Below are positions 3,049 through 33,075 of a stretch of DNA of 36,118 nt, piece after piece. The translations under genes and the position numbers were made by a program. The stretch covers positions 1 through 36,118 of the forward strand of contig JAHIVT010000141.1 of assembly GCA_018816555.1 (NCBI GenBank). The letters are read 5' to 3'. Below the pieces are notes generated by a model that was not told where the DNA came from, did no database searches, and saw only the letters and a program-made list of their open reading frames with translations. The first letter of the stretch is position 1; each line of letters begins with the position of its first letter. This stretch comes from Pseudomonadota bacterium. GTDB taxonomy: Bacteria > Desulfobacterota > Desulfobulbia > Desulfobulbales > SURF-16.

Positions 3049-3173
3049 CTTTTCTCCTGTTTAGGTCACATTTGATTACCTCATAAAAGGCTTACCGCAT
3101 TATTCGTTACAAAGACGCGGCTGCCAGCGCTCGGGTTTGGGGAAAACTGGTATCAAAGCGGGCAATAAGCAAG

Positions 3174-3201
3174 AAGGTGCCGCCTTGGCAGGCGGCACCT
3201 T
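3174..3201 (-). terminator. Hairpin between the 11-haem cytochrome and the PKD protein
   Basis: An 11-bp perfect stem (AAGGTGCCGCC / GGCGGCACCTT) with a 6-base loop begins eight bases after the cytochrome stop codon. On the minus strand the following bases are only moderately U-rich (CTTGCTTATTG), so it may attenuate rather than stop transcription into the PKD gene. On the plus strand a run of six T follows (3205-3210). Confidence 0.6.
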
Positions 3202-3208
3202 GGGTTTT

Positions 3209-5335: not shown

Positions 5336-5369
5336 ATTTTCTTCTCCTTGTCAGATCAAACCGCAGTTA

Positions 5370-7568: not shown

Positions 7569-7662
7569 TTTCCCCTCCCCTCATTGTGGAAAATTGTGAT
7601 AACTCGTCCCGCCCGCGGTATGTATGATATTGTTAGGCGTAAAAGATCAAAGATTCAAATCA

Positions 7663-7678
7663 AGCAAGAAATGCACCA
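7663..7678 (-). promoter_or_regulatory. Sigma-54 promoter for the 13-haem/11-haem cytochrome operon
   Basis: On the minus strand the sequence is TGGTGCATTTCTTGCT. The -12 element TTGCT is perfect, the -24 GG is present with the correct 12-base spacing, and only the CAC part of -24 is degenerate. It is about 95 bp upstream of GTG 7568, and paired enhancer-like repeats lie about 100-130 bp further upstream. Confidence 0.65.
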
Positions 7679-7775
7679 TTTATTTGTTTGTGCCAGCTGT
7701 TTTTTAACTCTATGGAATAACAGGAGAAAATTTTATTGCCTTGCAGGATGATGCCGGATGATATGAGTGGTTTGC

Positions 7776-7809
7776 GGGTAATATGCCCCTCTTTTGGGGC
7801 ATATTACCC
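7776..7809 (-). promoter_or_regulatory. Inverted pair of 14-bp repeats: enhancer site and/or terminator
   Basis: GGGTAATATGCCCC (7776-7789) and its exact complement GGGGCATATTACCC (7796-7809) face each other across six bases. As a hairpin (14-bp perfect stem) it could terminate the upstream 12-haem gene, whose stop is at 7891, but no T tract follows on the minus strand. Each arm also matches the 14-bp motif found upstream of the other sigma-54 promoters, with the usual 20-bp repeat spacing, and the pair lies about 100 bp upstream of the promoter at 7663. It may do both. Apart from this and the promoter, the 7569-7890 gap shows nothing further. Confidence 0.6.
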
Positions 7810-7890
7810 TTTTGGGTGGGTGAAGAGATGGGATGTTGCCTCACATAAAAGGATGCTGTCAGGCAGAGTTTTTGATTCTGGCAATGTCCC

Positions 7891-10670: not shown

Positions 10671-10702
10671 GAAGGATATGTGAAATTTGGTTTACGGTTT
10701 TA

Positions 10703-11794: not shown

Positions 11795-11816
11795 GCTGTT
11801 TTCCTTTTAAAAATGA

Positions 11817-13892: not shown

Positions 13893-13909
13893 CTGTTGCC
13901 GCCTGCCTG

Positions 13910-15070: not shown

Positions 15071-15139
15071 CAACCTCACCATTTTTCATAGTTTGTATTG
15101 TTAATGATATGAGAACTAACAGAGAGATTAAGTATAAAC

Positions 15140-15492: not shown

Positions 15493-15647
15493 TTTTTGGC
15501 CAGACAGAAGATGATCTATCGTGATCATACTTGTAACGCGCTCATGGAATTTGGGGAAATTCATGGGATGCTGTTCTAGTTGAGAACAGCTTTTTAGCAA
15601 AAGGTGACTTCTGTCAAAAATGACAAATGTCGCAAGCAGGAGGAAAG

Positions 15648-16463
15648 ATGATGAAAAAAAGTATTCTCTTAGCAGCTGCTTTCGGTCTGATCGTAGCCGG
15701 CGCGGCTCAAGCGCAAAATTCAACCACCGGTTCCTTTAACGCTGCCGCGGGTGCCGGTATTGTCGGTTCAAAACATGACCTGAGCAATGCAACGGGTATT
15801 GGCAGCATCTACGGACAGACCGATGCACTGGATCGTATCTGTATTTACTGCCATGCTCCTCACCATGCAATCCAGGAAGCCGATGCTGCCGGTATTACCT
15901 ATCTGCCCCTGTGGAACCATGGGGTAACCACTCAGTTTTACAACACCTACCAGAGCGATTTCGGTGATGGACCCAACGCTTCGGGCCTGGCCGGCGTTGG
16001 CGTTTCTGGTGATGCCCAGCAGTTTGCCGATCGCCATCTCTTCAATGGCGAGGCCACCCTTGGCGAGCCAGGTTCCGTTTCACGTCTCTGTCTGAGCTGC
16101 CATGACGGTACGGTTGCGGTGAACGAGTATGGTTTTGATCCGGGCCGGGCCGAGTCCCGTGGTGCTGCCACCCACTTTATCGCCGATCAGTTCAAGATCG
16201 GTGGTGGGGGCAATCTGACCAACCATCATCCCATCGGCTTCAGCTACATCGATGTAGCAGCCATGGACGATGAGATCGCCAATCCTGATACCGTTGTCAA
16301 CGGCGCCGGCGAGGCCATGACCACCATCCGCTCCCTGCTTTACGGCGATAAGATGGAATGTGTAACCTGCCATGACGTGCACAACACCAAGAACACCGGT
16401 GAGACCTTCCTGTGGAAATCCGATACAAACAGTGGTTTCTGTCTGACCTGTCATATCAAATAA
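15648..16463 (+). CDS. Tetrahaem cytochrome c, OmcE-like (candidate extracellular filament subunit)
   Basis: The 271-residue protein starts at ATG 15648 or the adjacent 15651 (AGGAGG at 15638-15643). The signal peptide ends AAQA, leaving Gln-Asn-Ser at the mature N-terminus. Four CX2CH motifs lie at residues about 65, 148, 238 and 265 (CIYCH, CLSCH, CVTCH, CLTCH). Between haems 2 and 3 is NHHPIGFSY, whose His residues are likely distal haem ligands. The signature GSKHDLS ... RICIYCHAPH ... PLWNH ... RLCLSCHDGTVAV ... CVTCHDVHN ... CLTCH at the extreme C-terminus is what I associate with the OmcE-type tetrahaem family, whose Geobacter member polymerises into conductive filaments. That this one polymerises is inference from four haems, size, terminal haem and context. 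It is transcribed alone (own sigma-54 promoter, strong terminator) and divergently from the barrel operon. Confidence 0.88.
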   Translation: MMKKSILLAAAFGLIVAGAAQAQNSTTGSFNAAAGAGIVGSKHDLSNATGIGSIYGQTDALDRICIYCHAPHHAIQEADAAGITYLPLWNHGVTTQFYNTYQSDFGDGPNASGLAGVGVSGDAQQFADRHLFNGEATLGEPGSVSRLCLSCHDGTVAVNEYGFDPGRAESRGAATHFIADQFKIGGGGNLTNHHPIGFSYIDVAAMDDEIANPDTVVNGAGEAMTTIRSLLYGDKMECVTCHDVHNTKNTGETFLWKSDTNSGFCLTCHIK

Positions 16464-16495
16464 GCAACTCATATTTAATGATGTAGCAGTTTCCG

Positions 16496-16524
16496 GGGGG
16501 AGCCGTTCGGCTCCCCCTTTTTTT
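16496..16524 (+). terminator. Strong rho-independent terminator after the tetrahaem gene
   Basis: A perfect 9-bp stem GGGGGAGCC / GGCTCCCCC with GTTC loop is followed by seven T. It makes the tetrahaem a monocistronic, potentially highly expressed transcript. Confidence 0.93.
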
Positions 16525-16630
16525 ATCCTCCGATGTTAATCCTTCCCTTTTTTAATCCCTCCTCTTGTTGAACTCATCACGGCAAATGCCGCAGATTGGC
16601 CAGCCGGTATGCTCGCTGCATGCATTATTT

Positions 16631-16663
16631 GGGTTATTTAACCCTTGTAGGGTGAAATGCACC
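16631..16663 (+). promoter_or_regulatory. Paired 14-bp repeats upstream of the octahaem gene
   Basis: GGGTTATTTAACCC (16631-16644, perfect GGGTTA/TAACCC inverted repeat) and GGGTGAAATGCACC (16650-16663) are spaced 19 bp apart and match the shared enhancer-like motif. The rest of the 16525-17098 gap contains no supportable gene; only a weak promoter candidate is seen at 16797. Confidence 0.55.
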
Positions 16664-16796
16664 ATCGGTTAGCCAAGTCTCCGGCGTGCCGGTTTGCCCT
16701 GGATAACAGATGTAAAAATTGAAAAATTCAATGATGTCAAGAGAATATGTTGCAAGGAGCCCTGCCTGTGATTTTTGTGGAGTAGGCCCCACAGTG

Positions 16797-16812
16797 TGGC
16801 ATAAAAATTGAT
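16797..16812 (+). promoter_or_regulatory. Weak sigma-54-like site
   Basis: TGGCATAAAAATTGAT has a good -24 and TTG at -12 with correct spacing, but the nearly invariant -12 C is A. It lies about 135 bp after the paired repeats, as at the other promoters; that position is the main reason to list it. Confidence 0.3.
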
Positions 16813-17098
16813 GCATTTGTTTGCAGGCAAATAGAACCTTGAGCTCGGCGGCTGTTTTTTTTGTGTTACGGGCAGCCGATCTCATTTTCCATTTTGGCGC
16901 AGAAGGTACCTGCCCGCCGCTATCCGGGCAGTCGCGACTGCGGCAGCAGGGTGATGACCATTGATATGGGTCATACACAGTCAGCTGCACCTTTGGTGAG
17001 GAGCCTGATCTGGCGGTTACTATTCCATGATGACTTTGCTGTGCCATGTCATCATGCCGGGATCAGGAAATTTTTCTTTTAAAAAGGGGAGAATGAAA

Positions 17099-18154
17099 AT
17101 GAAGAAGAAAATCTGTGCAGGTGCTTTGGCGGTTGTGGGACTTGCCATCCCTTCTCTGGGCCTGGGGGCATTTGGTGACATCCCGTGCTCTAACTGTCAC
17201 GTGTGGAATGACTGTACCAGTCCCAAGGGCGAGTGTGGTTCATGTCACGCTCTGCCCCCTGCCACCGGGGCTCATCTCGCCCATTTCGGCGGGGTAAATC
17301 AGCCGGTAACCTATGGTGATCTGCGTCTAACCGCCGATTTTGCCGCAGGTCAGGCCGTCACCGTTAACATGATCGGCTGCGGCAACTGCCATCCCCTTGA
17401 TTCCGCCTCCCATGGCAACGGTGTATGGGGAGATATCGAGCTGGGCAATCCTGCGGCGCCGGCCGGCAGCATCAAGGCGGCCAACAGCGGGGCCTCCTAT
17501 GACCCTGCCACCGGGACCTGCAGCAATGTCTACTGCCACAGCGCCAACAGCTGGACCACGGACGGTGACGTGCCCATGCCGTGGCCGGCCGGCTCGCTGC
17601 CTGATAATATCATCACCACCAGAATATATAAGGATGTGCAATGGAATAGCGGCACCACCCTTGACTGCAACGGCTGCCACGGCAATTCGCCCAAGACAAG
17701 CTCTGTAGATAACAGCGGCGGCTCGGGGGACAGCCATTACTGGATCGATGATTACGGCTACGAGGATCTGCATGTATGGAATCATGGCTTTGAGGCCATA
17801 GGCTGCCGGACCTGCCATTATGATACCGTGCGGGAGCCCAGCACCACGGGGATCGGCACGGACGGCCTGCGCTTCTACAACGATGTTGCCCTGTTTGACA
17901 AGGCAAACCATGTGAACGGCGCCGTTGATGTGGTTTTTGATACGGAAAACGGTTTCACGTATAACGCCTCTTCAGGAATGAAAACCTATGACTTCGCAGG
18001 TTCCTCCTATGACCCTGCAACCAAAACCTGCACCAATGTGGGCTGCCATAACGGCGGGACCAAGGCCGAGGATACCGTTGTCTGGGGAACGCCCTACCGC
18101 TGGTGGGATGATCATGAATGCGACCGCTGCCATCAGTTTTACGGGACACCGTGA
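17099..18154 (+). CDS. Octahaem cytochrome c of the CX4CH...CX2CH type
   Basis: The start at ATG 17099 (351 residues, MKKKICAGALAVVGLAIPSLGLG) is set by AAAAAGGGGAG 8 bases upstream; the in-frame ATG at 17093 is too close to it. Six CX2CH motifs (CSNCH, CGSCH, CGNCH, CNGCH, CRTCH, CDRCH) and two CX4CH (CSNVYCH, CTNVGCH) give eight haems. The repeated unit SYDPATGTCSNVYCH...CNGCHG and SYDPATKTCTNVGCH...CDRCH is the domain described from Geobacter sulfurreducens as CxxxxCH/CXXCH. NHVNGAVDVVFD between them is also typical of that family, which includes secreted cytochromes. No PKD tail is present. The next cytochrome begins 116 bp downstream with no terminator between, so they are probably co-transcribed. 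Confidence 0.9.
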   Translation: MKKKICAGALAVVGLAIPSLGLGAFGDIPCSNCHVWNDCTSPKGECGSCHALPPATGAHLAHFGGVNQPVTYGDLRLTADFAAGQAVTVNMIGCGNCHPLDSASHGNGVWGDIELGNPAAPAGSIKAANSGASYDPATGTCSNVYCHSANSWTTDGDVPMPWPAGSLPDNIITTRIYKDVQWNSGTTLDCNGCHGNSPKTSSVDNSGGSGDSHYWIDDYGYEDLHVWNHGFEAIGCRTCHYDTVREPSTTGIGTDGLRFYNDVALFDKANHVNGAVDVVFDTENGFTYNASSGMKTYDFAGSSYDPATKTCTNVGCHNGGTKAEDTVVWGTPYRWWDDHECDRCHQFYGTP

Positions 18155-18270
18155 AAGTGACGGTCGGACAAAGGGATAAAGAGTTTTTCCATTCAACTTG
18201 CATACCAGGATGATGTCGGCACGCTGTCTTTCACAACCATGAGGGATGTCGGTGCCGCAGGAGAGTGAAA

Positions 18271-20415
18271 ATGACTAAGAGATATACCTTGAGCGGTTTG
18301 ATCATAATGGCAGGATTGCTGCTGGGCAAGGCAGCCATTGCCGCCCAGTCACCCCACTGGTTGGAGAATAATATTTACTGTCTTGACTGTCATGTCGATC
18401 ACCAGGGCACGACCACGGCCTGCACCGATTGCCATGACAATGACACGGGGGGCAACTATTCCAAACTGGACGCACCGGCGGTGCAGGGGCACGCCGGCTT
18501 CGGCTGCGTGACCTGTCATGATCCCCATACCTCGGCGCAATGCACCCTGCCGCTGGTGACTGGCAGCTTCAGCGGTTATCAGATAGGAGAGCAGACCACA
18601 ACCTTTTCCATCGATTCATTGAATATCATTGATCCGGCCTGGAGTGATCCGGCGCTGTGGAGCACCAAAAGCGGTCCGGAACGGGGCCTGATCTTTACGG
18701 TTGCCCTTGGTCTGCTGGATAATACCAGAACACCGCCGGAATATGTGGACTACTCGGCCGAGGTGGTAGCGGCAGACGCGGGTTCGATTACGGTAAACGG
18801 CACATATGCCGGCAGCGCGCTCAGCGGTACCCAGGAGTTCAGCCTGATCTTCGGACAGCTCATCACCAGCGAGATCAACGGCAGACCGGTGGTCTTCAGT
18901 GGACCCGCCACCTTTGCGGCAAACGACGGGATGGATCCGGATGGCGGCGATTCCACGCCGAACGGGGTATGCCAGGTCTGCCACACCCAGACTAAATACT
19001 GGCGCAACGATGGCTCCTTGGCCAGCCATAACAATGGTCAGGACTGTACCATCTGCCATGAGCACCAGAGCGGCTTTAATGCCAACTGCAACTCCTGCCA
19101 CGGTAATCCGCCGGTGGTGGATACGGCCCGGGGTGGGGACGGCCTGGTGGCTGTGCCGGCTGAAACAGGTTCCGCAACGGCAGGAGCCCATGCCCTGCAT
19201 GCCACGGCGGATGGGTATAACTTCAGCTGCGATAGCTGCCATACCGGCGGCATGCCAACATCCCCCATCTCGGACAACAACAGAATCCAGATCGGTTTTG
19301 GGGTTAACCCTGTTGGCGTTATCGCAAACTATGACGGGCAGGCCGGGCTGCAATCTCCCTACAGCTATGAAGGGACAGGCGATACCAGCGTTACCCTCGG
19401 CAACAGTCTGACCTGCAGTAATGTTTACTGCCACAGCAACGGCGCCTGGGTGTCAACAGGCAAACTCAATGCCAACGCCACCCCTTCCTGGGATACGCAG
19501 GGGCCGCTGGCCTGCAGCAGCTGCCATCCTTATCCCATGGCAACAGGAGCAGATGATCCGCGCAAGGATACCCATGGCCGCCATGCCTTGGCAGGCTACG
19601 GCAGTTGCCGGATATGCCACTATCAAACCACCACGGACGGCGCGACAATTCATGACCGCACCCGGCATGCCAACCAGGCCTATGACGTTGTCCCGGCACC
19701 GACTTTTGCCGGACGGCCTGCCGACGGCAACCAGCCCCTGACCTTTAACTATAGCTTTGCCAAGGGCGGCGGCACCTGTTCCGCCAATTCCTGTCATGCC
19801 TACTGGGGCTTTTCCGATCCGGCCCGCTGGGGGGTGAATATTGATCTGGTGGTGACACCCTATGTCAGCGCCCTGCCCTCACTCACCGCAGACCGGACAA
19901 TTACCTTTGATGCCAGTCGCTCCTCCTGTTACGAAAACGTGGACGGCGTGCCGGAAGAGCGGGTATGTAGCTATACCTGGGATTTCGGCGGCAGCGGCAA
20001 CGTGGTCGGCGGCAACAGCACGGATACAGTGATCTACCAGTATGGCGCCGAGGGGGATTATACTGCCAGCCTGACCATGCGTGAGTCGGTGACAGGCAAG
20101 TCGAACACGGCAAGCGTGACGGTTACTGCCGAAAATGTTGCCCCTCCTGCCTCGGTGGTTGATTTTGCCACCACGGTGACCGGCAAAACCGTAAAGCTTA
20201 CCGCCACTCTGCCCGCTGATGTCGTAAGGCTCTATGTGTACTGGGGTGATGGCAAGAAAACCGTCTACTCACACCCGGCAACCGATGTCATGACCCACAC
20301 TTACAGTGTAGGCAACCGAACGTTTACGATGAGTGTAACCAGCTATGACGCGGCCTATCACAAGGTGAACTATACCGTTGCCGACGACCCGGATCTTGTT
20401 GTTTTCATTCCCTGA
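18271..20415 (+). CDS. Large exported cytochrome c, about 11 haems, with C-terminal tandem PKD domains
   Basis: The start is ATG 18271 (714 residues) with GGAG 7 bases upstream; the GTG at 18265 lies too close to it. After a signal peptide ending AAIA, nine CX2CH (CLDCH, CTDCH, CVTCH, CQVCH, CTICH, CNSCH, CDSCH, CSSCH, CRICH) and two CX4CH (CSNVYCH, CSANSCH) follow. A haemless insert of about 120 residues separates haems 3 and 4. The C-terminal 190 residues are a PKD pair (FDASRSSCYENVDG ... YTWDFGG ... YGAEGDYTASLTM; LYVYWGDGKKTV) ending DDPDLVVFIP, closely matching the free-standing PKD protein at 2185 and the tail of the selenocytochrome. Paralogue of the protein at 3209 on the opposite arm of the locus, with the regular CX4CH where that protein has CX3CH. 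Probably surface-exposed. A strong terminator follows. Confidence 0.9.
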   Translation: MTKRYTLSGLIIMAGLLLGKAAIAAQSPHWLENNIYCLDCHVDHQGTTTACTDCHDNDTGGNYSKLDAPAVQGHAGFGCVTCHDPHTSAQCTLPLVTGSFSGYQIGEQTTTFSIDSLNIIDPAWSDPALWSTKSGPERGLIFTVALGLLDNTRTPPEYVDYSAEVVAADAGSITVNGTYAGSALSGTQEFSLIFGQLITSEINGRPVVFSGPATFAANDGMDPDGGDSTPNGVCQVCHTQTKYWRNDGSLASHNNGQDCTICHEHQSGFNANCNSCHGNPPVVDTARGGDGLVAVPAETGSATAGAHALHATADGYNFSCDSCHTGGMPTSPISDNNRIQIGFGVNPVGVIANYDGQAGLQSPYSYEGTGDTSVTLGNSLTCSNVYCHSNGAWVSTGKLNANATPSWDTQGPLACSSCHPYPMATGADDPRKDTHGRHALAGYGSCRICHYQTTTDGATIHDRTRHANQAYDVVPAPTFAGRPADGNQPLTFNYSFAKGGGTCSANSCHAYWGFSDPARWGVNIDLVVTPYVSALPSLTADRTITFDASRSSCYENVDGVPEERVCSYTWDFGGSGNVVGGNSTDTVIYQYGAEGDYTASLTMRESVTGKSNTASVTVTAENVAPPASVVDFATTVTGKTVKLTATLPADVVRLYVYWGDGKKTVYSHPATDVMTHTYSVGNRTFTMSVTSYDAAYHKVNYTVADDPDLVVFIP

Positions 20416-21054: not shown

Positions 21055-24000
21055 ATGAGAAAAAGGTATAAAAACGGCTTACTGGTATCAGCCCTGACCA
21101 CAGCAGCCCTGATGGTTGGCGTCAATGCCTTTGCCCATCCGGCGAACATTCCGTTGAGGGACAGTGCCGGGAATATTATCAGCAATGCAACTACGCCTTA
21201 CAGCCCGAAAATGACCTGTGGTGCCTGTCATACAACCCCGGTCACATATGACGCTAATGGCAAGGAACTCGATGCCCCGGTCAGTGTCAAGGGAAGCTAT
21301 GACGGCGGCGGCGCAGCAAAAACCGTTGTCAAGACCCAAGGTATCCAGAATGAGACCACCGGCGAGGCCGAGTGGGTTACCTATACCGTAGAAGCCTACA
21401 AACACGGCTTTGTTACCGGCCGCCACTCCCAGGAGGGACGGAACGAGGACTACGGCAACCATCTGCGTCATGCGGTGGGCGGGAAGTTCTGGGCCTCCAG
21501 CCCAGGCATGTTCGGCAAGTACTGACCCCCCTCAAACCGCCAGTTGGCGGCTAAAAACGCAGATCCTTTAACCAACCCTCTTTCCGTTGAGATGGGTGCC
21601 CAGTCCTGGGTTAACACCTGTGGCGTCTGCCATGTCGGCGGCGGTCAGTTGGAATATGACCGTGACCTTCAGCCCTATAGCGAAGCTTCAGGGCCGGGTG
21701 ACGCATATGTGCTGAAATATGCCCGTCCTGATGATCCCGCTACACAGGCAGACGAAACCTCATGGGACAACGTCACCGTGGGCAACATGAGTGACACCAA
21801 CAAGGCAGAGATGGACTGCCTGATGTGCCATTTGAACGGCTCCAACCCCGGTTCCGCCTGGTACAAGACCCTGGACTGCGGTCCTGGTAATGCCATCGGA
21901 CCGATGAATGATCCGACTTGTTCCGGTACCTCCATGTTCCCCGGCATGCGCACCGTGTCTCCGGACAGTGAGTGGACCTATGACATGTTCAACCGCAACT
22001 TCGGTCTCAAGCAGCGCCGTATGGATCTCATCGCCTCCATGGGCGCAGGCGCAAAGGGTACTTTTGACGCTGATAATCAGCTTACCGGTGTTGACTGGGG
22101 CGGCAAGGTTATAGTGGCCACGTCCGCAGAGCTGGTCCTGAAAAACACAATTGTTACCAGAGCGGTGAGAGACGCCATCGGCGCCTGTTATGAAACTGGA
22201 ACTACTGTTGACTATGGTGGTACTGCTGGACTTCCCCTTGATGCTGAACATCCTGTGGCAGGTAAATACTATACCGGTACTGATCCTGACACTTTAGTTC
22301 CTTCAGGATCGTACTATCTTACAAATGTAACAGACTGTGTCAAAATCAAGGATACCAATCTCGCCTATACTCCGAAGAGCGAGAATTGCTCCGTCTGCCA
22401 CGCCCGCGATGACCAAACCATGGGTCTGCCCGGCATGATGGCCATGCGTACCGGTTACGGCAACTACGGCCTGATCCATGATCCGTCCAACCCCATGCCT
22501 TCAGGCAATATGGGTGCCAGCCGCGATCTGGATACCGATAACGGAGCAGGTGCTGTAAACGACGACTACTGGTTCGATTTCGGCTGCAAGACCGGTATGG
22601 GTAAACGCGCCCACAAGATCACCGCAGAAAACGATGATTACGGCGTCAACGCCCGCTGGGGCATGTCCATGTTTGTCCCGAGCACTCTGGATATGGATCC
22701 TGCCACCGTACCCAACGCCGGCGACCCGATCCTTGATGCAAAAGGCAAGCTAGCCAAGATGCCGGATATCGACGTTCATGATCGTCATGGCATGGAGTGC
22801 GCCTCCTGCCATTACGCAGTGGGCTCCACCACCAAGGATCTCAACGATGTTGACGGTGACAGTAATACCACTGAAAATCTCGGTTATGAGGATATCCCCG
22901 CCAAAGAGGTACACGGCTATGAATATCCGGCCGAGCGTATCTACGCCATGGACCATCAGTTTGCCCAGGCTGACTCTTACCCGGACACCAAGGGCAAGAA
23001 CAACCTCGATGCCAAGATCAGATGTGATGGCTGCCATACCGTTCGCGACAACCCGAAACTGTTGGAAAACGGCGGTACTCTTAATGCCCCGACTCCGCTG
23101 CATAACGGTCTGCCCCAGCTGCATATCGACAGGATCGGCTGCGTGACCTGTCACGTGCCTGAGACCTATTCCGCTCCCGGCCGCCTGAAATATCGCGACT
23201 GGACCGCAGGTTTTGCCCGCGGCACCTTCAGGAACACCCTGGACTGGAACTTCGACCTGGTGACCGGCACCCATAAAACCGTGCCTTCACTGCGCAAATG
23301 GATGACCAAGAACGGCGAGCGTAAGATCTATCCTGTTCTGCCGTCACTGCTGCCCACCTGGTACGAGATGGTGCCGAACAGCGGCGTGCTGGTTAAAGAT
23401 GATGCCGGTATGGTGGCAGCAGGCGAGCCCATGGACAATATCCTGGACGAGCACACCGCCTTACTGCCGTCACCGGTTAAAAACCGTGACCTGCAGAGGG
23501 TTGCCGAGTATGTCCGCGACAATAACCCGGCATTCGACATGCGTCTCAACGGCGGCAACACCGTGCCTCTGTTTGACGGTTTCCAGATTGTCGACTCCTG
23601 GGAGATTGATACCGAGGCTGAGATCAATGCCATGCTGGACGGCTTCCACGGTCAGGTTAATGGTACCGATGCCCGTTTCGTTAAGTTCCTCAACGTTGTT
23701 CAGGCTGACTTTGACGTCACCCACGGCGTTGTGCCGAAAGATTGGGCACTGGGCGGCAAGAACCGCGGCGGTTGTGTCAGCTGTCACTCTTCCATGAATG
23801 CGGCCAGCCCCAATTACTCACCCTACTCAATTGGTTTCTTTGAGGGTTACGTACAGCCCGTGGCCAATGCCGGTATGCCTGGCTTTGGCGTAGGCGCCTA
23901 CGAGATCGTCAAGAACTGGATGGCCATGTTTGCCGATTTCGACGCCGCCGGCATGTGCGGTATGGGCGATCCGACCAAGATGGTTGCAGATGGTATGGGC

Positions 24001-25503
24001 GGGATGCTTAACCCCTACACCGACCATCACAACTACTACTTTAACCCCATGACCGGCGCTCCCAATATGACCGCCGAGTGTTCTCCAAATTCATGGTTCT
24101 CCAATAACCAGATGTTCGGCACGCAAGGCGGCAACGCTCAGCTGCAGCATGTTATCGGCATGATGACCACGACCTTTGATCAGGCCATGGGCTTCCCGGC
24201 CGGTACAGCCATGCAGATGGGTATGTATGACGGTGTTGCCGGTATCCAGGGCTTTGCGCTCAAAGAACTGCAGAGAGCAGGCACCCTGGGATGTAACCCG
24301 TTCGCCGGCCCGGTCAGCTTCAGCCCCATGGCGGGACAGAGTGTGAACAACTGTATGCCGAACTATGCCGGTATGTCTGGTATGGAAGCATATGCAGGCA
24401 TGATCAACGGTACCTGTGCTGGTGCTGATCCGGTGAACGGCGTTCCCGGAGCATGTTCCGGCGGTTTCCGCGACAACGGCGCCTGTATGGCAGATGCCGA
24501 CTGCGAAGGCGCCATGACCGATATGGCTGAGATTCAGCATAACCCGTTCGGTCTGTTGCTGAACAGGCATGACGCAGTGTCACACTTCAAGATCGACCTG
24601 CAGCAGAGCTATAATGGTGATGGCAGCCCGAAAGTCAAATGGGCTGTCGGCGGCGAGCAGAACCCGAGCAACCCGAACCATGTGGCAAGCTGGGATCAGG
24701 CAGCCTACTGCTATGACTACATGGGCGGACCGAACCCCATGACCCCGGCTGTTGTCCCGTGTAATTCCGCGGCAGCCACAGCCATGGACGGCAAACGTCA
24801 CATCGCCACCGCCCAGAGCGCCAACCAGTACCTTGGTTACACCACGCAGGCACTGGCCCTGTTGATGAATCCGGGTACGGCACAGTCTCAGGCTGCGCTG
24901 AAAGTAACCGCCAACCTCAGTGCGCTGTCCAGCATTGATACAGATCTGACTGTTACGCTTGATGCAAGCAGGTCAACCTGTGCGGCACTGGTAGAAGGTG
25001 TCTATGTGCCTTATGCGCCTGGTTGCAACTACTCCTTTGATACCAACGGTGGAACAGTTGTCGGCGGCACCAATGCAGCCAATAAGGTTGTAGTGTATGG
25101 TGCTGAGGGTGATGTTGATGTGAGTGTCACCGTCTGTATGAACGACAATCCGGCCACTGGCGGAAACGAGGCAGGCATCTGTGATACCGATACGGTAACC
25201 GCCACAGCCATGATCGTTGAGGCTCCGATGCCAGTAGTTGACTTTGCCGCCAGCGTGGCCGGCAAAGTGGTCACCCTGACTGCTCCGACGCTGGATGCAA
25301 GCGTGGTTCGCGCCTACATCTACTGGGGTGACCGGACACGTACCGTGGTCACCAACGTAGCCACTCTGGCTAGCGGTATCAACCATACCTATGCCCGCGG
25401 CGGTCGCAGCTACAACATCATCGTTGAGGCAATCGACTCCAAGCATACAATGACCACCTTTACCTCCACCGATGATGGTGATCTCTCCGTAACTCTGCCG
25501 TAA
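21055..25503 (+). CDS. Octahaem cytochrome c with a putative selenocysteine (UGA read through) and PKD tail
   Basis: The frame from ATG 21055 (AAGGAG upstream) runs 156 codons to TGA 21523-21525, then continues in the same frame without another stop to 25503. Read through, it is one protein of 1482 residues with Sec at 157. The first part supplies the signal peptide (to NAFA, about residue 27) and haem 1 (CGACH, residue 55). The second has seven more CX2CH (CGVCH at 189, CLMCH, CSVCH, CASCH, CDGCH, CVTCH, CVSCH), a long Met/Gly-rich haemless region and the tandem PKD tail (LDASRSTC; YIYWGDRTRT; DDGDLSVTLP). The second part alone would have no signal peptide and only a TTG start, so it could not be exported for haem attachment. 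A hairpin fitting the bacterial SECIS rules follows the UGA. The alternative is a recent nonsense mutation. Substrate unknown; likely surface redox protein. Confidence 0.78.
21523..21550 (+). other. In-frame UGA codon and SECIS-like hairpin
   Basis: UGA at 21523-21525 is followed by a perfect 5-bp stem CCGCC (21537-21541) / GGCGG (21546-21550) with apical loop AGTT. The loop begins 16 bases after the UGA and has G at its second position. As I recall the bacterial SECIS model, it requires a stem of at least 4 bp, a loop 16-37 bases from UGA and G in the first two loop positions; this fits at the lower edge. The protein context is G-K-Y-U-P-P-S. Confidence 0.65.
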
Positions 25504-25735: not shown

Positions 25736-26830
25736 ATGAAGCGAATCAAATACTCTGTTACGGCAATTTTTCTGGGGGCTGTGCTCCTCACTACTCCTGT
25801 TGTGGCAAGTACTCCTGCGCCCTCTCCAGCTGCATCCGGGGCCTCCGTGACCAGCGAGCAGGCGGTGGCAACACCGGATAAGAATGAGATAGAGTCCAAC
25901 CGCAAGAAGGCGGCAGAAGCCAGGAAGGAGATCGTGGCCCGGGTCAATGGCGTTGAGATCAATATGTACGACCTGCTGGGTATGATGAACCGAGTGGCCA
26001 GCGCTTTTTACAAAGATGTCCAGGAGCCCAGCGAAGAGATCACCAGGGAGATCAGACAGCGGGCGCTGGATCGTCTCATCTTTGAAGAGCTGGCGGTGGC
26101 GGAGGCTGAAAAGCAGGGCATCAAGCCCAAGGCGGAAAGAACCCAGGAGGTAATAGATAATCTCAAAAGCAGCTATGGTTCGGAAGAGGGATTCGCGGGC
26201 TATCTTGCCGACATTGCGCTGACCGAGGAGCAGCTCAGGGTCAGGATTGACCGGAGCCAGCTTCTTGAGGGCATCACCGGCCGCGAGGTGTACCAGAAGT
26301 CGGGTAAAGATCCTGCGGCGGTGGATAGGCTCTACCAGGAGTACAAGGAAGCCGGCAAATTAAAAAAGGCGGAAAATTACCAGATCAAGGAGATTCTGGT
26401 CATGGCCGGCAAGGATGTACAGGCGACAAGGGCCACCGCGGAAAAACTCCAGGCGCAGCTCACGCAGAACAATAATGACTTCAGTAAACTGATGCTCGAC
26501 GGCACCTTCATTGTCCGTCGCTATCAGGTCAATAAAGACAAGAATCCCGCAATATTTGAAAAAATGCTGGGCATGAAGGTCGGCGAGTTCAGCGGTGTTG
26601 TGCAGGATGGGGATACCTTCCATATTTTTGAGGTGCTGCATAAAGAGCCGGCCCGCGATCTGACGGAAGAGGAGGCGCGCACCATGTTGGAAGACCGACT
26701 GTCCCCCTATTTCCAGGAGAAGCGGCGGCAAGAATGGATGAAGGACCTGAGGAAAGATGCCAAGGTTGAGATCCTGCTAGATGATCTGCAACAGGAGGCC
26801 GGGGAGACGACGGTCAAGGCACAGAAATAG
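25736..26830 (+). CDS. Second exported SurA/parvulin-type foldase
   Basis: The 364-residue protein has a signal peptide ending near VVAS, then a Pro/Ala/Ser linker. The SurA-N-like region (IVARVNGVEINMYDLLGMMNRV ... RQRALDRLIFEELAVAEAEKQGI ... LTEEQLRVRIDRSQLLEGI) is followed by a parvulin-like fold (residues about 215-310), ending in a charged helix. The active-site His expected in the first strand is replaced (NYQIKEILVM), while the final strand TFHIFEVLHK keeps His. It is thus probably a chaperone more than an isomerase. Same architecture as the protein at 10703 but diverged; each arm of the locus has its own. AAGGAG 8 bases before the ATG. It probably assists folding of the neighbouring giant cytochrome. 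Confidence 0.85.
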   Translation: MKRIKYSVTAIFLGAVLLTTPVVASTPAPSPAASGASVTSEQAVATPDKNEIESNRKKAAEARKEIVARVNGVEINMYDLLGMMNRVASAFYKDVQEPSEEITREIRQRALDRLIFEELAVAEAEKQGIKPKAERTQEVIDNLKSSYGSEEGFAGYLADIALTEEQLRVRIDRSQLLEGITGREVYQKSGKDPAAVDRLYQEYKEAGKLKKAENYQIKEILVMAGKDVQATRATAEKLQAQLTQNNNDFSKLMLDGTFIVRRYQVNKDKNPAIFEKMLGMKVGEFSGVVQDGDTFHIFEVLHKEPARDLTEEEARTMLEDRLSPYFQEKRRQEWMKDLRKDAKVEILLDDLQQEAGETTVKAQK

Positions 26831-28043: not shown

Positions 28044-28883
28044 ATGAATTTGAAAAATATTACTAATCTCTTTATCATGTTCTGCGTATGTGGCTTTATA
28101 CACGTGCAGTTTTCGCAGCTTCGGGCAGCCGAGGCAGAACAGAGCGGGACCGTTCGTTCTAGTGTCCGCGGTGGGGATTGCGTCAAATGTCATGAAAGTA
28201 TTGTCCTTACCCTGCAGCGCATGGGCAAGGCCCACCGGCAGCTCTGCCTGGATTGTCATCAGGGGCATCCGCCGGCTGATATGGAGATTGTTCCGTCCTG
28301 CAGTCGCTGTCATCGGGAAGGGCCTCATTTTGCATTGCCCGGCTGTTTAAAATGTCATACTGACCCGCATCAACCGCTGGAGATCAGCTTTACCCGGGAT
28401 ATAACCGCCCCCTGTCTGGCATGCCATAAACAACAGAGTGAACAGCTGCTTGCCAACCCGAGCATTCACAGTAAACTGGCCTGCTCGGCCTGTCATACCT
28501 TTCATGGCCAGATCCAGCCCTGTCAGAACTGTCATCTGCCCCATTCCGACACCATGGGGCGTGAAAGCTGCCATGGCTGCCATAAGGCGCACATGCCCCT
28601 TGTGGTGGCATACGGCGAGAATATTGTTTCGGAAGACTGCGGTTCCTGTCATAAGGATGTATATGAAATCATGGCGGCTACCTGGTCAAAACACAGAAAA
28701 GTGCCCTGTGTGCAGTGCCATGCCGGACGTCATGCCATGATTCCCCGCTGCCAGGATTGTCATGGCGAGCCGCATCCCCTGGAAATCTGGGCAAAGTTTA
28801 AGGAATGCGCTGACTGTCATGGGGTGGCCCATGAGCTGTGGGCAACCAAGGCCAGTAAAAATAAATTCGCGGAAAAAAACTAA
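28044..28883 (+). CDS. Dodecahaem periplasmic cytochrome c
   Basis: The 279-residue protein has a signal peptide (MNLKNITNLFIMFCVCGFIHVQFSQLRAAEA). Twelve CX2CH motifs are packed in about 220 residues (CVKCH, CLDCH, CSRCH, CLKCH, CLACH, CSACH, CQNCH, CHGCH, CGSCH, CVQCH, CQDCH, CADCH), roughly one haem per 18 residues, with additional His residues for bis-His ligation. Such density suits a compact electron wire in the periplasm; there is no lipobox, PKD domain or membrane anchor beyond the signal. It is the first gene of a run of eight closely spaced plus-strand genes ending at 34118. The upstream gap (27860-28043) is AT-rich and shows no sigma-54 match or 14-bp repeat, suggesting separate regulation from the 1-25.5 kb genes. 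Confidence 0.9.
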   Translation: MNLKNITNLFIMFCVCGFIHVQFSQLRAAEAEQSGTVRSSVRGGDCVKCHESIVLTLQRMGKAHRQLCLDCHQGHPPADMEIVPSCSRCHREGPHFALPGCLKCHTDPHQPLEISFTRDITAPCLACHKQQSEQLLANPSIHSKLACSACHTFHGQIQPCQNCHLPHSDTMGRESCHGCHKAHMPLVVAYGENIVSEDCGSCHKDVYEIMAATWSKHRKVPCVQCHAGRHAMIPRCQDCHGEPHPLEIWAKFKECADCHGVAHELWATKASKNKFAEKN

Positions 28884-28894
28884 GAAGATCCGGT

Positions 28895-30289
28895 ATGCAC
28901 TTGGACAAATCGACATTCATGCAGATTTTATCTCATCGCAATAACACGACCGATGGGGGAAATCGCCTTTTCCCTTTGTTTTTTTCCGTCTTGGTAGTTT
29001 TTTCTGTTTTGTTCCTTACGGCGGTACATGACTGCCGGGCCGATAACTGTCTGGCAAACGGCTGTCATGCTGAAGTGAAGATGAAGCAGTTTGTCCATGC
29101 CCCTGTTGACGGGGATGACTGCCTGTCCTGCCACCAACAGGTGAACCCGCAACATCCGTCTTCTGCGGGGAAGGACTTTGCCGTAGCGGCAGAGGGCGGC
29201 GACCTCTGTTTTCAGTGTCATGATCAGGAGGGGTTCAACGGCCAATTGAAACATGGCCCGTCTGCCTCCGGTGCCTGTACCGCGTGCCATGACCCGCATA
29301 GTTCCGATCAGAAAGGTCTGCTTAAAATGCCGCTGAAAGAATTGTGCCTTGATTGTCACCAGGATTTCGCGGCGAGCATGGAGGAGGCAGCCCACCTGCA
29401 TACCGCCATCCGCAAGCTTGACTGCGGCGCCTGCCATATGCCCCACAGCAGCGACCAGCCCAGCCTGTTGAAAGGCGACAGTATCAATCTCTGCTTCGGC
29501 TGCCACGAGAATATCAAAAACAAATATGATACCTCCCTGGACAAGCATAAGGCCCTTTATGTCAGGCAGCGATGCGGCAACTGTCATTTTGCCCACTTTT
29601 CCCAATATCCTGCCCTGCTTGTAAAAGAAGGGGCTGATCTCTGTTTCACCTGCCATGGCCAGGATGATCCGGGCCGCACCGATGCCCCCTTCAACATCCG
29701 CAAGGAGATAGAGGGTAAAGAGGTGGTGCACGGTCCGGTTGCCGAAGGAGAATGCGGTGCCTGTCATGATGTTCATGGCAGTAATTTCGCCATGCTGTTG
29801 ACCGGTCCCTTCCCCCGGACCTTTTATGCCCCGTATCAGGCTGATGAATATGACTTCTGCTTTGAGTGCCATGATAAAGAGCTGCTTACCTCCCAGCCGG
29901 TAAAAAATCAGACGGGTTTTCGTAACGGCACGGACAATCTCCATTATCGCCATGTGGTCAGAAAACAGAAGGGCCGTACCTGTCTGGCCTGCCATAGCGT
30001 GCATGCGAGCAATGGCCAGAAACTGATCAATCCTGAAGGAATTCCCTTTGGTAAATGGAAAATTCCCATCAGATTCGTGGCCACCGACACCGGCGGCGGA
30101 TGTGTGCCCGGCTGCCATCGTTCACTGGATTACGACAGAAAGGCGCCTGTTGATTACAGTAAACCCGGGGCGGCGAAGCAGAAGGAAGAGAAAAAACATC
30201 CAGAGGTTGAGAAAGAGAGCAAACCTGCTGCTGCGGACACAGAGTCACTGGAAACAGAGCCACTGGATACTGAGCAGATAAAACCATGA
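28895..30289 (+). CDS. Cytochrome c with about 13 haems, doubled-CXXCH type, charged C-terminal tail
   Basis: The 464-residue protein starts at ATG 28895 (or 28919, both with poor ribosome sites); its hydrophobic export segment is at about residues 25-44. The first motif is CX4CH (CLANGCH), then eleven CX2CH (CLSCH, CFQCH, CTACH, CLDCH, CGACH, CFGCH, CGNCH, CFTCH, CGACH, CFECH, CLACH), and last a CX3CH (CVPGCH). The regular C..CH...GP...C..CH...H spacing is that of doubled-CXXCH domains (PF09699). After the last haem a 60-residue Lys/Glu/Pro-rich tail follows with the near-repeat SLETEPLDTEQ, probably disordered. The first and last motifs and the block FRNGTDNLHYRHV...GG-C-PGCH...YDRKA recur in the 7-haem protein at 30939. 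The stop overlaps the next start by 4 bp. Confidence 0.9.
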   Translation: MHLDKSTFMQILSHRNNTTDGGNRLFPLFFSVLVVFSVLFLTAVHDCRADNCLANGCHAEVKMKQFVHAPVDGDDCLSCHQQVNPQHPSSAGKDFAVAAEGGDLCFQCHDQEGFNGQLKHGPSASGACTACHDPHSSDQKGLLKMPLKELCLDCHQDFAASMEEAAHLHTAIRKLDCGACHMPHSSDQPSLLKGDSINLCFGCHENIKNKYDTSLDKHKALYVRQRCGNCHFAHFSQYPALLVKEGADLCFTCHGQDDPGRTDAPFNIRKEIEGKEVVHGPVAEGECGACHDVHGSNFAMLLTGPFPRTFYAPYQADEYDFCFECHDKELLTSQPVKNQTGFRNGTDNLHYRHVVRKQKGRTCLACHSVHASNGQKLINPEGIPFGKWKIPIRFVATDTGGGCVPGCHRSLDYDRKAPVDYSKPGAAKQKEEKKHPEVEKESKPAAADTESLETEPLDTEQIKP

Positions 30290-30885
30290 AACGGCTATTA
30301 ATCTTATTTCCCCTTGTCTGCGGATCATTGCTGCTGGCTTTTGCCGGCTGCTCCAACGATCCGCTCATCAACCAGAAAAGGCTGACTAATGTCTTTGACG
30401 GGGTACCGGACCTGCCGCCGCTTGAGCAGCTGTGCAAGGATAATATGGGTGATATCTTCAACACCTACTATGAGGAAAGGCTGGCCGAGGCTGCGGCAGG
30501 CTCCGTTGAAGAGGAAAAGACCGTTGTCGTCGGTTCGAGCCATCCGCCCTATGCGGAAAAAAACTGCCAGGGCTGCCATGACTTCAAAAAGAAGAATCTG
30601 CTCCTCTATCCGGCCGATCAGCTGTGCGAAACCTGCCATGTCGGCTTTGTCAAAGGAAAGTACATCCATGGCCCGGTCTCGGTGCGGGACTGTCTGGCCT
30701 GTCATCTGCCGCACAGTTCAAAAAACAAGTCGCTGCTGCAGGAGAGCGTGAGCGAAATCTGCTCCAAATGCCACCAGGAGGAGCGGCTGGCCTCGAAGAT
30801 GCATAAACTGGTCATGAAGCACAATATGGAATGCGTCAACTGTCATGATGCCCATGGCGGGGATACCCCCTATTTCCTGAAATAA
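30286..30885 (+). CDS. Pentahaem cytochrome c lipoprotein
   Basis: The 199-residue protein has a lipobox (LLLAFAGC, Cys 22), so it is anchored to a membrane by lipid. A haemless N-terminal region of about 70 residues precedes five CX2CH motifs (CQGCH, CETCH, CLACH, CSKCH, CVNCH) in doubled-CXXCH arrangement with PHSSKNKSLL between. It is translationally coupled to the 13-haem gene (ATGA overlap). A lipid-anchored cytochrome next to soluble ones suggests a docking point at the outer membrane's inner face. Confidence 0.88.
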   Translation: MKRLLILFPLVCGSLLLAFAGCSNDPLINQKRLTNVFDGVPDLPPLEQLCKDNMGDIFNTYYEERLAEAAAGSVEEEKTVVVGSSHPPYAEKNCQGCHDFKKKNLLLYPADQLCETCHVGFVKGKYIHGPVSVRDCLACHLPHSSKNKSLLQESVSEICSKCHQEERLASKMHKLVMKHNMECVNCHDAHGGDTPYFLK

Positions 30886-30938
30886 GCCGAGGAAATGGGC
30901 AAATTAACAGTGGAATCATCAATGTAAATTTTTAGCCT

Positions 30939-31661
30939 ATGCGACCATTATTTTTCAGCATTATCGTTATTGCAATTTCCCTGGCAACAGGCTTCCGGGC
31001 TCAAGCCCAGACAGGCTGTGTCACGGCCCAGTGCCATGCCGGCTTTGCGGAGAAAAAACAGACCCATCCCGCTGAGGCGCAATGCTCCTCCTGCCATCTT
31101 GACAGCGGAGACCAGCATGCCAAGGGCGGCGAAACCCCCCCGGCTCTCCATGAGGATATGTGTGTCTCCTGCCATGACACGATGCTTGCCCATCGCTATC
31201 TGCATTCGCCGGTAACCAAGGCGAGCTGCCATCTCTGCCATGACCCACATGACGACATGGCAAGGAAACTGCTGCCGGAAGGCTACTCCGATAAACCATT
31301 CATCAATTATGACGCCGAGGCATACAAGCTCTGCTTTTCCTGCCACAAGCGGGATCTGCTCATGTTCCCGGATACCTCCTATTCCACCGGGTTCCGTAAC
31401 GGCACCGTTAATCTCCACTATCTTCATGTGAACAAGGCCATTCGGGGCAGGAGCTGCAAACTCTGCCACGAAATGCATGGGGCGGAGCAGCCGAAGATGA
31501 TGGCGGATACGGTTTCCTTCGGCAACTGGCGGATGCCGGTGAAGTTCAAGATGACGGAAAATGGCGGCAGCTGCTTCCCCGGTTGCCATGAGACCCGGCA
31601 ATATGACCGCAAGGCCAGGACGGTGCATCCGGAAAGCCGGAATACGGAAAACGATAAATGA
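30939..31661 (+). CDS. Heptahaem periplasmic cytochrome c
   Basis: The 240-residue protein has a signal peptide ending AQA, leaving Gln-Thr-Gly-Cys at the mature end. It has CX4CH (CVTAQCH), five CX2CH (CSSCH, CVSCH, CHLCH, CFSCH, CKLCH) and a terminal CX3CH (CFPGCH). It matches the first and last domains of the 13-haem protein at 28895 (GFRNGTVNLHYLHV ... RGRSCKLCHEMHG ... GGSCFPGCHETRQYDRKA), so the two are paralogues of different length. There is no good ribosome site at the ATG. Confidence 0.88.
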   Translation: MRPLFFSIIVIAISLATGFRAQAQTGCVTAQCHAGFAEKKQTHPAEAQCSSCHLDSGDQHAKGGETPPALHEDMCVSCHDTMLAHRYLHSPVTKASCHLCHDPHDDMARKLLPEGYSDKPFINYDAEAYKLCFSCHKRDLLMFPDTSYSTGFRNGTVNLHYLHVNKAIRGRSCKLCHEMHGAEQPKMMADTVSFGNWRMPVKFKMTENGGSCFPGCHETRQYDRKARTVHPESRNTENDK

Positions 31662-31672
31662 GGTGATGTGTT

Positions 31673-32239
31673 GTGAGTGATGCTCGATCCTATCAGGTCA
31701 TTGACAAGTCATACATGCGCATGATGGTTATCCGCTGCGCGCTGATTTTTTTTGCCGGCCTGTTGATTACAGGAGGGATTTTTTTTCTGATGATGCGCCA
31801 GTCCATCGGCCCGACCTATAGCGAAGGGTACCGAATGCTGGCTCAGCTGAACCGCGATATTTTCTATAAATCCCTTGTCATATACGGCAGCACGGTGCTG
31901 GTGGCGCTGGGCTGCATCGCGGTCACCATCATGCTGTATTCTCACCGGGTTGCCGGGCCTGTTTATCGTCTGCGGCTTTTTGCCGGCAGTATCGGTAAAG
32001 GTGAGATAAGTACCCGGGTGACGCTGCGGCAGACTGACGTGGTACACCCTCTGGCAAAGGAAATGAACCGGATGAATGATAATTTTCGAATGACACTGAC
32101 CGCAGTCATGCTGGAGATGGAGACATTGGAAAAACAAGCTGAGCTTCTTGAAAAAAACCAGGACGGTCGGGAGGCGCTCAATCAAATCAGAGAGGGGGCG
32201 GGAAGAATTTCCACTCTCATCGGCAAGTACAAATTATAA
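31673..32239 (+). CDS. Small inner-membrane HAMP-domain protein without output domain
   Basis: The 188-residue protein starts at GTG 31673 (AGGTGA upstream). Two transmembrane helices (about 18-40 and 68-90) flank a short periplasmic loop of about 27 residues. A cytoplasmic HAMP domain follows (HRVAGPVYRLRLFAGSIGKG with VHPLAKEMNRMNDNF), then a coiled-coil-like helix (LEMETLEKQAELLEKNQ) and the end; no kinase, cyclase or methyl-accepting domain is present. It is similar in size and layout to the protein at 33130. HAMP modules normally relay signals across membranes; in a cytochrome operon this could report or gate electron flow, or simply anchor partners. Function not known. Confidence 0.8.
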   Translation: MSDARSYQVIDKSYMRMMVIRCALIFFAGLLITGGIFFLMMRQSIGPTYSEGYRMLAQLNRDIFYKSLVIYGSTVLVALGCIAVTIMLYSHRVAGPVYRLRLFAGSIGKGEISTRVTLRQTDVVHPLAKEMNRMNDNFRMTLTAVMLEMETLEKQAELLEKNQDGREALNQIREGAGRISTLIGKYKL

Positions 32240-32250
32240 TTGTCAGTGGT

Positions 32251-33075
32251 ATGAAAAAATCCGTTCTTCTTTCTCTGCTTTTTGTCTGCGTCCTGTATTT
32301 GTTTGTTTATTGTCTGGAGCGAAATCCCCATGACTTCAAGGAGAGCGAATGCGGCATGTGTCATCAGGGCGACCCGAACTCGGCTAACTCGCTCTTGACG
32401 ACCAGCTCGACCGGAGCCTGTACCGGCTGTCATGGTGACATCCTGCGTTCCGGGTTCATGCATCCGTATGATGTGCGCCCCGAGCAGGTGAGTATCCCCA
32501 GAGACTTCCCCCTTGCCCCGTCAGGTCTGCTTGTCTGCACCACCTGCCATGGCGTGCATTCCGCTCATATCGATGCGTTGGGGCAAAAAACATATTTTCT
32601 GCGGCGTCAGGAGCGGGGCCGGGCCTTCTGCGCCGGTTGCCACACCCAGAGTACCCTTGCCGGCGGCCATGAGCTGGGGCTCGGCGAGGCGCATTTCCAG
32701 TCAAAGTATATCTCCACCGGTTACGGGCAGGACCTCGATGAAACGTCGAAAAACTGTATTTCCTGCCATGACGGCACCTATGGATCATCGGTGTCCATTT
32801 CCAGCGGGGTCTGGCAGCATAGCAGCAATTATGATCCTGCCGGTATGGGGCTTGAACGCAAGCATCCCATCGGCATCGATTATGAAGAGGCCCGCTTAAA
32901 GCATGGCCGGAAAACGGATCTGCGGCCCCTGGCCATGGTTGATCCGCGTATCCAGCTCTATAACGGCAGGCTGGGTTGCGGCACCTGCCATAATCCCTAT
33001 TCCCATCTTGAGGATGATCTGGTGATGAGCAATGAGCACAGCGCCCTCTGTTTTAGCTGCCACCAGATGGATTGA
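32251..33075 (+). CDS. Heptahaem cytochrome c, probably N-terminally membrane-anchored
   Basis: The 274-residue protein begins with a hydrophobic segment MKKSVLLSLLFVCVLYLFVYCLERN without a clear cleavage site, so it may stay tethered to the inner membrane. Seven CX2CH motifs (CGMCH, CTGCH, CTTCH, CAGCH, CISCH, CGTCH, CFSCH) follow. The C-terminal half (CISCHDGTYGSS ... KHPIGIDY ... CGTCHNPYS ... CFSCHQMD) parallels the C-terminal half of the tetrahaem at 15648, including the HP(I/V) motif and a terminal haem. It lies 11 bp after one HAMP gene and 54 bp before the other. Confidence 0.88.
   Translation: MKKSVLLSLLFVCVLYLFVYCLERNPHDFKESECGMCHQGDPNSANSLLTTSSTGACTGCHGDILRSGFMHPYDVRPEQVSIPRDFPLAPSGLLVCTTCHGVHSAHIDALGQKTYFLRRQERGRAFCAGCHTQSTLAGGHELGLGEAHFQSKYISTGYGQDLDETSKNCISCHDGTYGSSVSISSGVWQHSSNYDPAGMGLERKHPIGIDYEEARLKHGRKTDLRPLAMVDPRIQLYNGRLGCGTCHNPYSHLEDDLVMSNEHSALCFSCHQMD

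Follow-up and report, generated by a model that had tools for sequence, protein, structure and literature searches.

The stretch of DNA analyzed here (the window; 36,118 nucleotides, positions 1 to 36,118 of the forward strand of contig JAHIVT010000141.1, GenBank assembly GCA_018816555.1, from a bacterium of the GTDB lineage Desulfobacterota, Desulfobulbales, SURF-16) carries on its plus strand two adjacent open reading frames that almost certainly constitute one gene, in which selenocysteine (Sec) is encoded by an in-frame TGA and inserted into a giant octahaem c-type cytochrome. The upstream frame (21055-21525, 156 amino acids) starts with ATG and the downstream frame (21544-25503, 1319 amino acids) with TTG, with six sense codons between the TGA and the TTG; translated with TGA as U, the joined frame at 21055-25503 yields 1482 residues with a sole U at residue 157. 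A sequence-only reading had proposed this arrangement, and counts on the translation bear out its particulars, namely, one CXXCH haem motif before Sec157 and seven after it, and 32 residues from Sec157 to Cys189 of haem 2. The features of the gene are as follows.

21055..25503, plus strand: predicted octahaem c-type cytochrome selenoprotein gene, 1482 residues, Sec157 (from the open reading frames, the translation, and homologues with TGA or Cys in the column)
21055..21135, plus strand: likely signal peptide, residues 1-27 (read by eye from a basic start, a hydrophobic stretch, and AFA-H)
21217..21231, plus strand: haem 1, CGACH, residues 55-59 (TGA=U translation)
21523..21525, plus strand: TGA, predicted Sec157 in GKYUPPSNRQLAAK (translation and homologue column)
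21537..21550, plus strand: putative Sec insertion sequence (SECIS) hairpin, CCGCC-AGTT-GGCGG (folding, synonymous sites, and covariation)
21619..21633, plus strand: haem 2, CGVCH, residues 189-193, followed by a conserved GGG (translation and invariant columns of the family alignment)
21817..21831, plus strand: haem 3, CLMCH, residues 255-259 (translation and family alignment, as for haems 4 to 8)
22387..22401, plus strand: haem 4, CSVCH, residues 445-449
22603..22605, plus strand: Lys517, invariant in family alignment A1, in a profile column that faces Lys153 of octahaem tetrathionate reductase (OTR; alignment and profile comparisons)
22798..22812, plus strand: haem 5, CASCH, residues 582-586
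23023..23037, plus strand: haem 6, CDGCH, residues 657-661
23140..23154, plus strand: haem 7, CVTCH, residues 696-700
23773..23787, plus strand: haem 8, CVSCH, residues 907-911
24901..25500, plus strand: C-terminal module of about 200 residues (1283-1482), PKD-like at best (shared with other cytochromes of the host genome)

In line with the sequence-only reading, the host genome (G000; 4.93 Mb, 97% complete, 4% contaminated) contains selA, selB, selC, and selD, each above its curated cut-off, and the tRNA-Sec, whose gene is also called by ARAGORN, has the anticodon TCA. The host selD match itself holds an in-frame TGA (locus L240, G000:C145:35773-36699), which probably makes the host SelD another selenoprotein. 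The same genome carries a further Sec octahaem gene (L213, G000:C80:21283-23340), with its TGA at the motif seen in the window gene.

Among the host genome and 96 relatives, 14 of the 97 genomes contain matches to the window protein, some of them to the C-terminal module alone. TGA occupies the same column in full-length homologues from G001, G002, G004 (in two pieces), G011, and contig C10 of G018, as well as in less similar homologues from G014, G016, G094 (C7 and C48), G093 (two), and G013, while two homologues, G018:C37 and G094:C107, have Cys there; G018 and G094 thus each carry both a Sec and a Cys copy. Close homologues aligned at residue 157 therefore show UGA or Cys, as had been anticipated. 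These paralogues bear on the idea that the UGA is a selenium-dependent switch, at which low selenium would release a useful single-haem fragment of 156 residues. Such a fragment would retain both signal peptide and haem 1, but nothing indicates that a free end has been selected for, and the Cys paralogues in the two genomes with Sec copies offer a simpler backup, so that we regard a switch as very improbable.

To place the motif in a wider context, a degenerate DNA pattern for G-x-aromatic-[U/C]-P-P-[ST]-x-R-Q-x-A, with TGA, TGC, or TGT allowed, was scanned over genome contigs. At least 117 loci match, and at least 103 of them encode haem-motif proteins around the pattern; among the 103 such loci listed, the codon is TGA in 102 and TGT (Cys) in one (L159). 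The remaining 14 of the 117 lack a haem motif and were set aside as chance matches (70 loci kept and 10 without haem motifs among the first 80 rows read, and 33 and 4, respectively, among the other 37; the 70 include L082, which was retained by hand although its locus is cut). Two of those set aside, L067 and L131, lie on contigs of metagenome-assembled genomes (MAGs) of Dehalococcoidia and have an alike TGA context, YRGHWUPPCxRQLA. Cultured carriers include Geomonas oryzae S43, G. propionica Red259, G. azotofigens Red51, G. edaphica Red53, Malonomonas rubra DSM 5091 (two genes), and Fundidesulfovibrio agrisoli SG106. The MAG carriers among the matches listed belong to Desulfobulbaceae, Geobacteraceae, Syntrophobacterales, Desulfurobacteriaceae, Thermovibrio, Nitrospirae, Calditrichota, Deferrisomatales, and others, and Desulfuromonas-type bacteria are also among the carriers, with all of these names taken from record titles, which for MAGs can be wrong. 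Judged by these gene sequences, the window protein belongs to a widespread octahaem family and is not a single oddity, and since the same residue recurs in distant bacteria, Sec157 is probably part of a working active site.

The breadth of this recurrence also bears on whether the UGA is a genuine stop or arose through faulty sequencing or assembly, either of which would leave a broken gene or two genes. By the standard code it is a stop, and a second frame would begin at TTG; against this stand the TGA in 102 of the 103 listed relatives with sequence conserved on both sides, the Cys in close homologues that lack the TGA, and the constraint on the hairpin described below, which together leave the stop or error a negligible probability.

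The hairpin after the TGA has the geometry that the sequence-only reading gave it, with 16 nucleotides (nt) from UGA to loop, a 5-bp stem, and a 4-nt loop with G at position 2, and it folds at -9.4 kcal/mol. These values lie inside the numerical limits of a published bacterial SECIS model, which, in the part of that source available to us, are a loop of 3-9 nt, a stem of 4-16 bp, G in the first two loop positions, a spacing of 16-37 nt, and a minimum free energy of -7.5 kcal/mol or lower (PMC13188914). Folded alone, the hairpin is not significant (z of -0.96; 33/200 shuffles are as stable), and an Rfam scan of the window returned no SECIS at the gathering score; in a relaxed scan, the sole SECIS match near the TGA is on the opposite strand (E of 9.6). 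That the hairpin is more than chance follows from the recurrence of TGA and hairpin together in distant relatives.

Synonymous sites in these relatives carry a clear signal. They were counted in 73 of 76 sequences (one short sequence and two identical over 48 nt were dropped), with the codon use of the same genes as expectation. Within the hairpin, the third base is C in 65/70 Arg codons (17.9 expected; z of 14.1) and G in 72/72 Gln codons (57.7 expected; z of 4.5), 71/73 Leu codons (32.7 expected; z of 10.0), and 71/73 Ala codons (10.6 expected; z of 20.8). A fifth third base shows no excess (46/73 versus 43.2 expected) because it follows its pairing partner. Covariation was counted in 69 sequences, the window and 68 of the first 70 scan loci (L069 and L127 were left out), and the 33 later scan loci are absent from both counts. 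The hairpin scores 0.206 against a shuffled mean of 0.101, a value that 0/500 shuffles reach, and the best slid version attains 0.140; pair 15-28 is C-G in 41 sequences, U-A in 20, G-C in 5, and unpaired in 3. Two of the five pair measures fail to exceed shuffles, as pairs changed on both sides number 3 versus 3.0 and further pair types 7 versus 9.9, and 36/69 and 44/69 sequences lack pairing at the two outer positions of the stem; together with the insignificant fold of the isolated hairpin, these results count against a SECIS element here.

The Cys homologues offer a further comparison. No SECIS-type hairpin occurs in L229, L231, or L233, and L037 has a weak 4-bp hairpin alone; L018 keeps the full hairpin, as would a gene that had recently changed from Sec to Cys. 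These genes also speak to the notion that suppression or recoding reads the UGA as an ordinary residue (Trp or Cys). One distant homologue, L238, does have Trp at the aligned column, but the host has selA, selB, selD, and tRNA-Sec, the two nearest homologues without TGA carry Cys, and the conserved hairpin is missing in four of the five Cys homologues examined; the chance that an ordinary residue is inserted is accordingly minute.

A wider view of the column comes from a family profile search of 297 genomes of the phylum, 65 of which match at E≤1e-30. In 30 loci read from the larger set of matches, the residue at the Sec column is U in 23, C in 3, S in 2, Q in 1, and W in 1, the three Cys loci grouping in a clade next to Sec relatives whose motif context differs (GGR[WY]U). 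The sequence-only reading expected no ordinary residue in homologues; this fails for the four loci with Ser, Gln, or Trp and holds within the clade of the window, outside which all four fall in a quick FastTree phylogeny (93 of 108 rows, four pairs of rows being identical; the tree scored L082 as Ser from another stretch of its cut locus, and the motif of L082 itself reads TGA).

What the octahaem core is related to emerges from profiles. No NCBIfam model scores above its cut-off on the window protein, Pfam gives Cytochrome_C7 just above its cut-off plus three weaker haem-protein models, and a phmmer search of the window protein against the PDB found nothing up to an E of 10. With a profile of 37 family members, the best PDB match is 1sp3 (E of 2.3e-8), annotated there as a putative cytochrome c, which we take to be the octahaem tetrathionate reductase of Shewanella oneidensis. 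Haems 4-8 are in register in this alignment, with the conserved Lys of the family facing Lys153, and ahead of that register, family haem 3 is paired with OTR haem 1. Profile-profile comparison with 24 OTR-family proteins reaches 99.7% and an E of 2.9e-26 over haems 4-7, and a forced global run also pairs haems 1-3 (haem motifs inflate scores of both kinds). All eight haems and the Lys that faces Lys153 are thus present in OTR order, haems 1-3 by the global alignment alone. Each family has one invariant Cys or Sec that is not part of a haem motif, located between haems 1 and 2; as the rows of the window family were picked by the Sec/Cys motif, the informative part there is that no other non-haem Cys is invariant. 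Taken together, these comparisons make it very probable that the core of the window protein belongs to the OTR superfamily. Some members are compact, and two of these (L089:4910-7450 and L138:4336-6813) end in a formate dehydrogenase gamma/cytochrome b561-like membrane domain, which suggests that this subgroup exchanges electrons with the quinone pool.

Sec also occurs within the OTR family proper. A TIGR04315 search matched 141 of 297 genomes, 50 of them above the cut-off, and in 30 OTR-family loci read, 16 have Sec and 14 have Cys at the position of OTR Cys64. At 20 or 24 nt from the UGA, every one of the 16 Sec genes forms a hairpin of 7 bp or more with a G among the first two loop positions, and none of the 14 Cys genes has a hairpin above 5 bp. 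For the predicted products of these 30 genes, the exchange shows that a chalcogen is kept at the place of Cys64 and that Sec is able to function in that position. The residue two places ahead of the haem 2 motif is Cys (13/16) or Ala (3/16) in the Sec forms and Pro (14/14) in the Cys forms. We considered a Sec-Cys selenenylsulfide bridge in the Sec forms, but RNA constraint accounts for this Cys equally well, because its codon sits in the hairpin stem; in these genes, the protein sequence next to haem 2 may have been remodeled by the RNA signal. Overlap of the SECIS stem with the haem 2 motif is a feature of the OTR-family Sec genes, as noted for L182, L190, L192, L194, L198, L199, L201-L204, L206, L207, and L209.

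The gene lies in a cluster of cytochrome genes on the plus strand, as follows.

15627..20415, plus strand: three upstream multihaem cytochrome genes with 4, 6, and 9 CXXCH motifs (CXXCH counts and annotation)
25736..26830, plus strand: SurA/PPIC-type peptidyl-prolyl isomerase gene adjoining the cytochrome gene
28044..33075, plus strand: five downstream multihaem cytochrome genes with 12, 11, 5, 5, and 7 CXXCH motifs

A MORN-repeat gene on the opposite strand is listed between the isomerase gene and the downstream cytochrome genes. The gene order is conserved in G001 and, within the stretches compared, also in G004 and G011, the last from another genus; the G002 cluster has no match to the 6-haem gene, and on G018:C10 only the part downstream of the Sec gene is present. 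Since the gene stands among eight multihaem cytochrome genes and a peptidyl-prolyl isomerase, electrons are probably exchanged across or outside the outer membrane, and the composition of the cluster suits an electron conduit to the cell exterior. The window protein itself is probably exported, by a bacterium that takes part in sulfur cycling, and may be extracellular. The PKD tail that the sequence-only reading assigned to it is supported only indirectly: no PKD model matches the window protein at E≤0.1, and the neighboring gene at 18265-20415 has PKD scores just below the cut-offs (26.4 versus 27 and 23.4 versus 23.5 bits). The C-terminal 200 or so residues are 49-61% identical to the tails of at least four other host genes (contigs C80, C51, C95, and C71), and the module at 24901-25500 perhaps serves to sort or anchor exported cytochromes. 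Minus-strand genes at 2185-15082 encode further CXXCH cytochromes, ScyF-like repeat proteins, and a peptidyl-prolyl isomerase.

The explanation that we prefer, and regard as likely when taken whole, combines a Sec gene, a SECIS element, an OTR-like octahaem core, and Sec at the catalytic haem. On comparative evidence, SelB and Sec-tRNA(Sec) would read the UGA at 21523 as Sec, directed by the hairpin at 21537-21550, and the product, an octahaem c-type cytochrome with an OTR-homologous core, would be exported. Sec157 would take the part that Cys64 plays in OTR, at a catalytic haem that is open or ligated by Lys, where its selenolate would act on small sulfur, selenium, or nitrogen species as the other haems carry electrons. 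OTR reportedly reduces nitrite and hydroxylamine, to judge from the title of a paper. The analogy that equates Sec157 with Cys64 at the catalytic haem seems to us slightly favored; that both the window family and the OTR family use a haem-selenol active site, with one Sec at a Lys-ligated haem, has somewhat less than an even chance; and a sulfur species as the substrate can be put forward tentatively.

Several observations weigh against this explanation. The window protein matches a single NCBIfam family, TIGR04315, at 17.9 bits versus a cut-off of 375, so that membership in the family proper fails (eight relatives score at most 40.3 bits). Taken alone, the N-terminal part aligns weakly with that of the OTR family (47%, E of 1.9e-4) and with confidence only around haem 2; hhalign does not align Sec157 with OTR Cys64, and the spacing from Sec or Cys to haem 2 is 32 residues in the window protein versus 10 in OTR. 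On the OTR side, the placing of Cys64 and Lys153 at the active-site haem 2 is that reportedly given in the 2004 structure paper. AlphaFold models are poor both for residues 28-1000 of the window protein (35 rows; mean predicted local distance difference test score [pLDDT] of 45.2) and for the compact relative L089 (28 rows; mean pLDDT of 46.9), and the L089 model, for which neither Foldseek (E≤0.001) nor VIA-align (Z≥5) gave a match, is uninformative on fold. The Ser, Gln, or Trp in 4/30 profile-search loci means that a chalcogen is not needed in all relatives, and the invariance at residue 157 in family alignments A1, A2, and A5 arises by construction, as their rows were picked by the Sec/Cys motif.

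Some of these observations would fit a Sec that is real and not catalytic, serving as a haem or metal ligand or as a redox or structural bridge in a protein that is an electron conduit and not an enzyme. The multihaem cytochromes around the gene are consistent with a conduit, as are the Ser, Gln, and Trp in distant relatives and the failure of the poor models to place Sec157 at a haem. However, the core is homologous to that of a catalytic octahaem enzyme, down to the Lys facing Lys153, and Sec and Cys exchange at Cys64 within the OTR family itself; on this evidence, we consider a noncatalytic Sec unlikely.

Standard annotation would split such Sec cytochrome genes in two and lose them. With the octahaem family, the selenoproteins gain a family and multihaem electron transfer becomes tied to the supply of selenium, and the exact replacement of Cys64 by Sec in OTR-family genes makes the role of this residue directly testable. 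If the haem-selenol active site is real, it would be used in respiration, in part outside the cell, for redox reactions of sulfur, selenium, or nitrogen compounds, and would span forms from those fused to a cytochrome b domain to giant exported ones.

Sec in multihaem cytochromes has already been proposed, and the Sec octahaem family itself is without a description that we could find. According to the accessible parts of the sources, GSU2937-2936 was put forward in 2007 as a multihaem cytochrome with Sec (PMC1914089); this protein, later named ExtKL, has five haems, occurs in Geobacter and relatives, and is possibly involved in selenite reduction (PMC5877670). The available portion of a 2026 review lists ExtKL and one TIGR04315 protein, WP_331457571.1, the latter as "GenBank annotated" and without a motif (PMC13188914), and a "cytochrome c family protein" is listed in the part of PMC9312934 at hand; the corresponding parts of PMC9012536 and PMC2702500 hold nothing on the window family. 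A literature search of titles and abstracts, with most subscription papers and all of bioRxiv outside it, found no description of the window family or of Sec at OTR Cys64.

Among known systems, the OmcA/MtrC decahaem cytochromes (TIGR03507 and PF22113) resemble the window protein in being exported and multihaem, and PF22113 scores 21.5 bits versus a cut-off of 30; unlike them, the window protein has eight haems and an OTR-like core, and TIGR03507 gives no match to it at E≤0.1 (three of eight relatives reach at most 14.9 bits versus 209.3). ExtKL (GSU2937-GSU2936, NF040886) is likewise a multihaem c-type cytochrome with a predicted in-frame Sec, but it has five haems in its N-terminal part and, as far as the accessible part of the source goes, a C-terminal part without known relatives (PMC1914089); NF040886 matches neither the window protein at E≤0.1 nor eight relatives at E≤0.5. 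WP_331457571.1 is also an octahaem cytochrome with Sec and, in the available portion of the source, differs in being filed in the OTR family itself. Compared with OTR (1sp3, TIGR04315), the window protein is about three times longer and has GKYUPPSxRQ where OTR has NNF[U/C], but the two share eight haems, the alignment of haems 4-8 and of a Lys with Lys153, a single invariant non-haem Cys or Sec between haems 1 and 2, and, in both families, the exchange of Sec and Cys.

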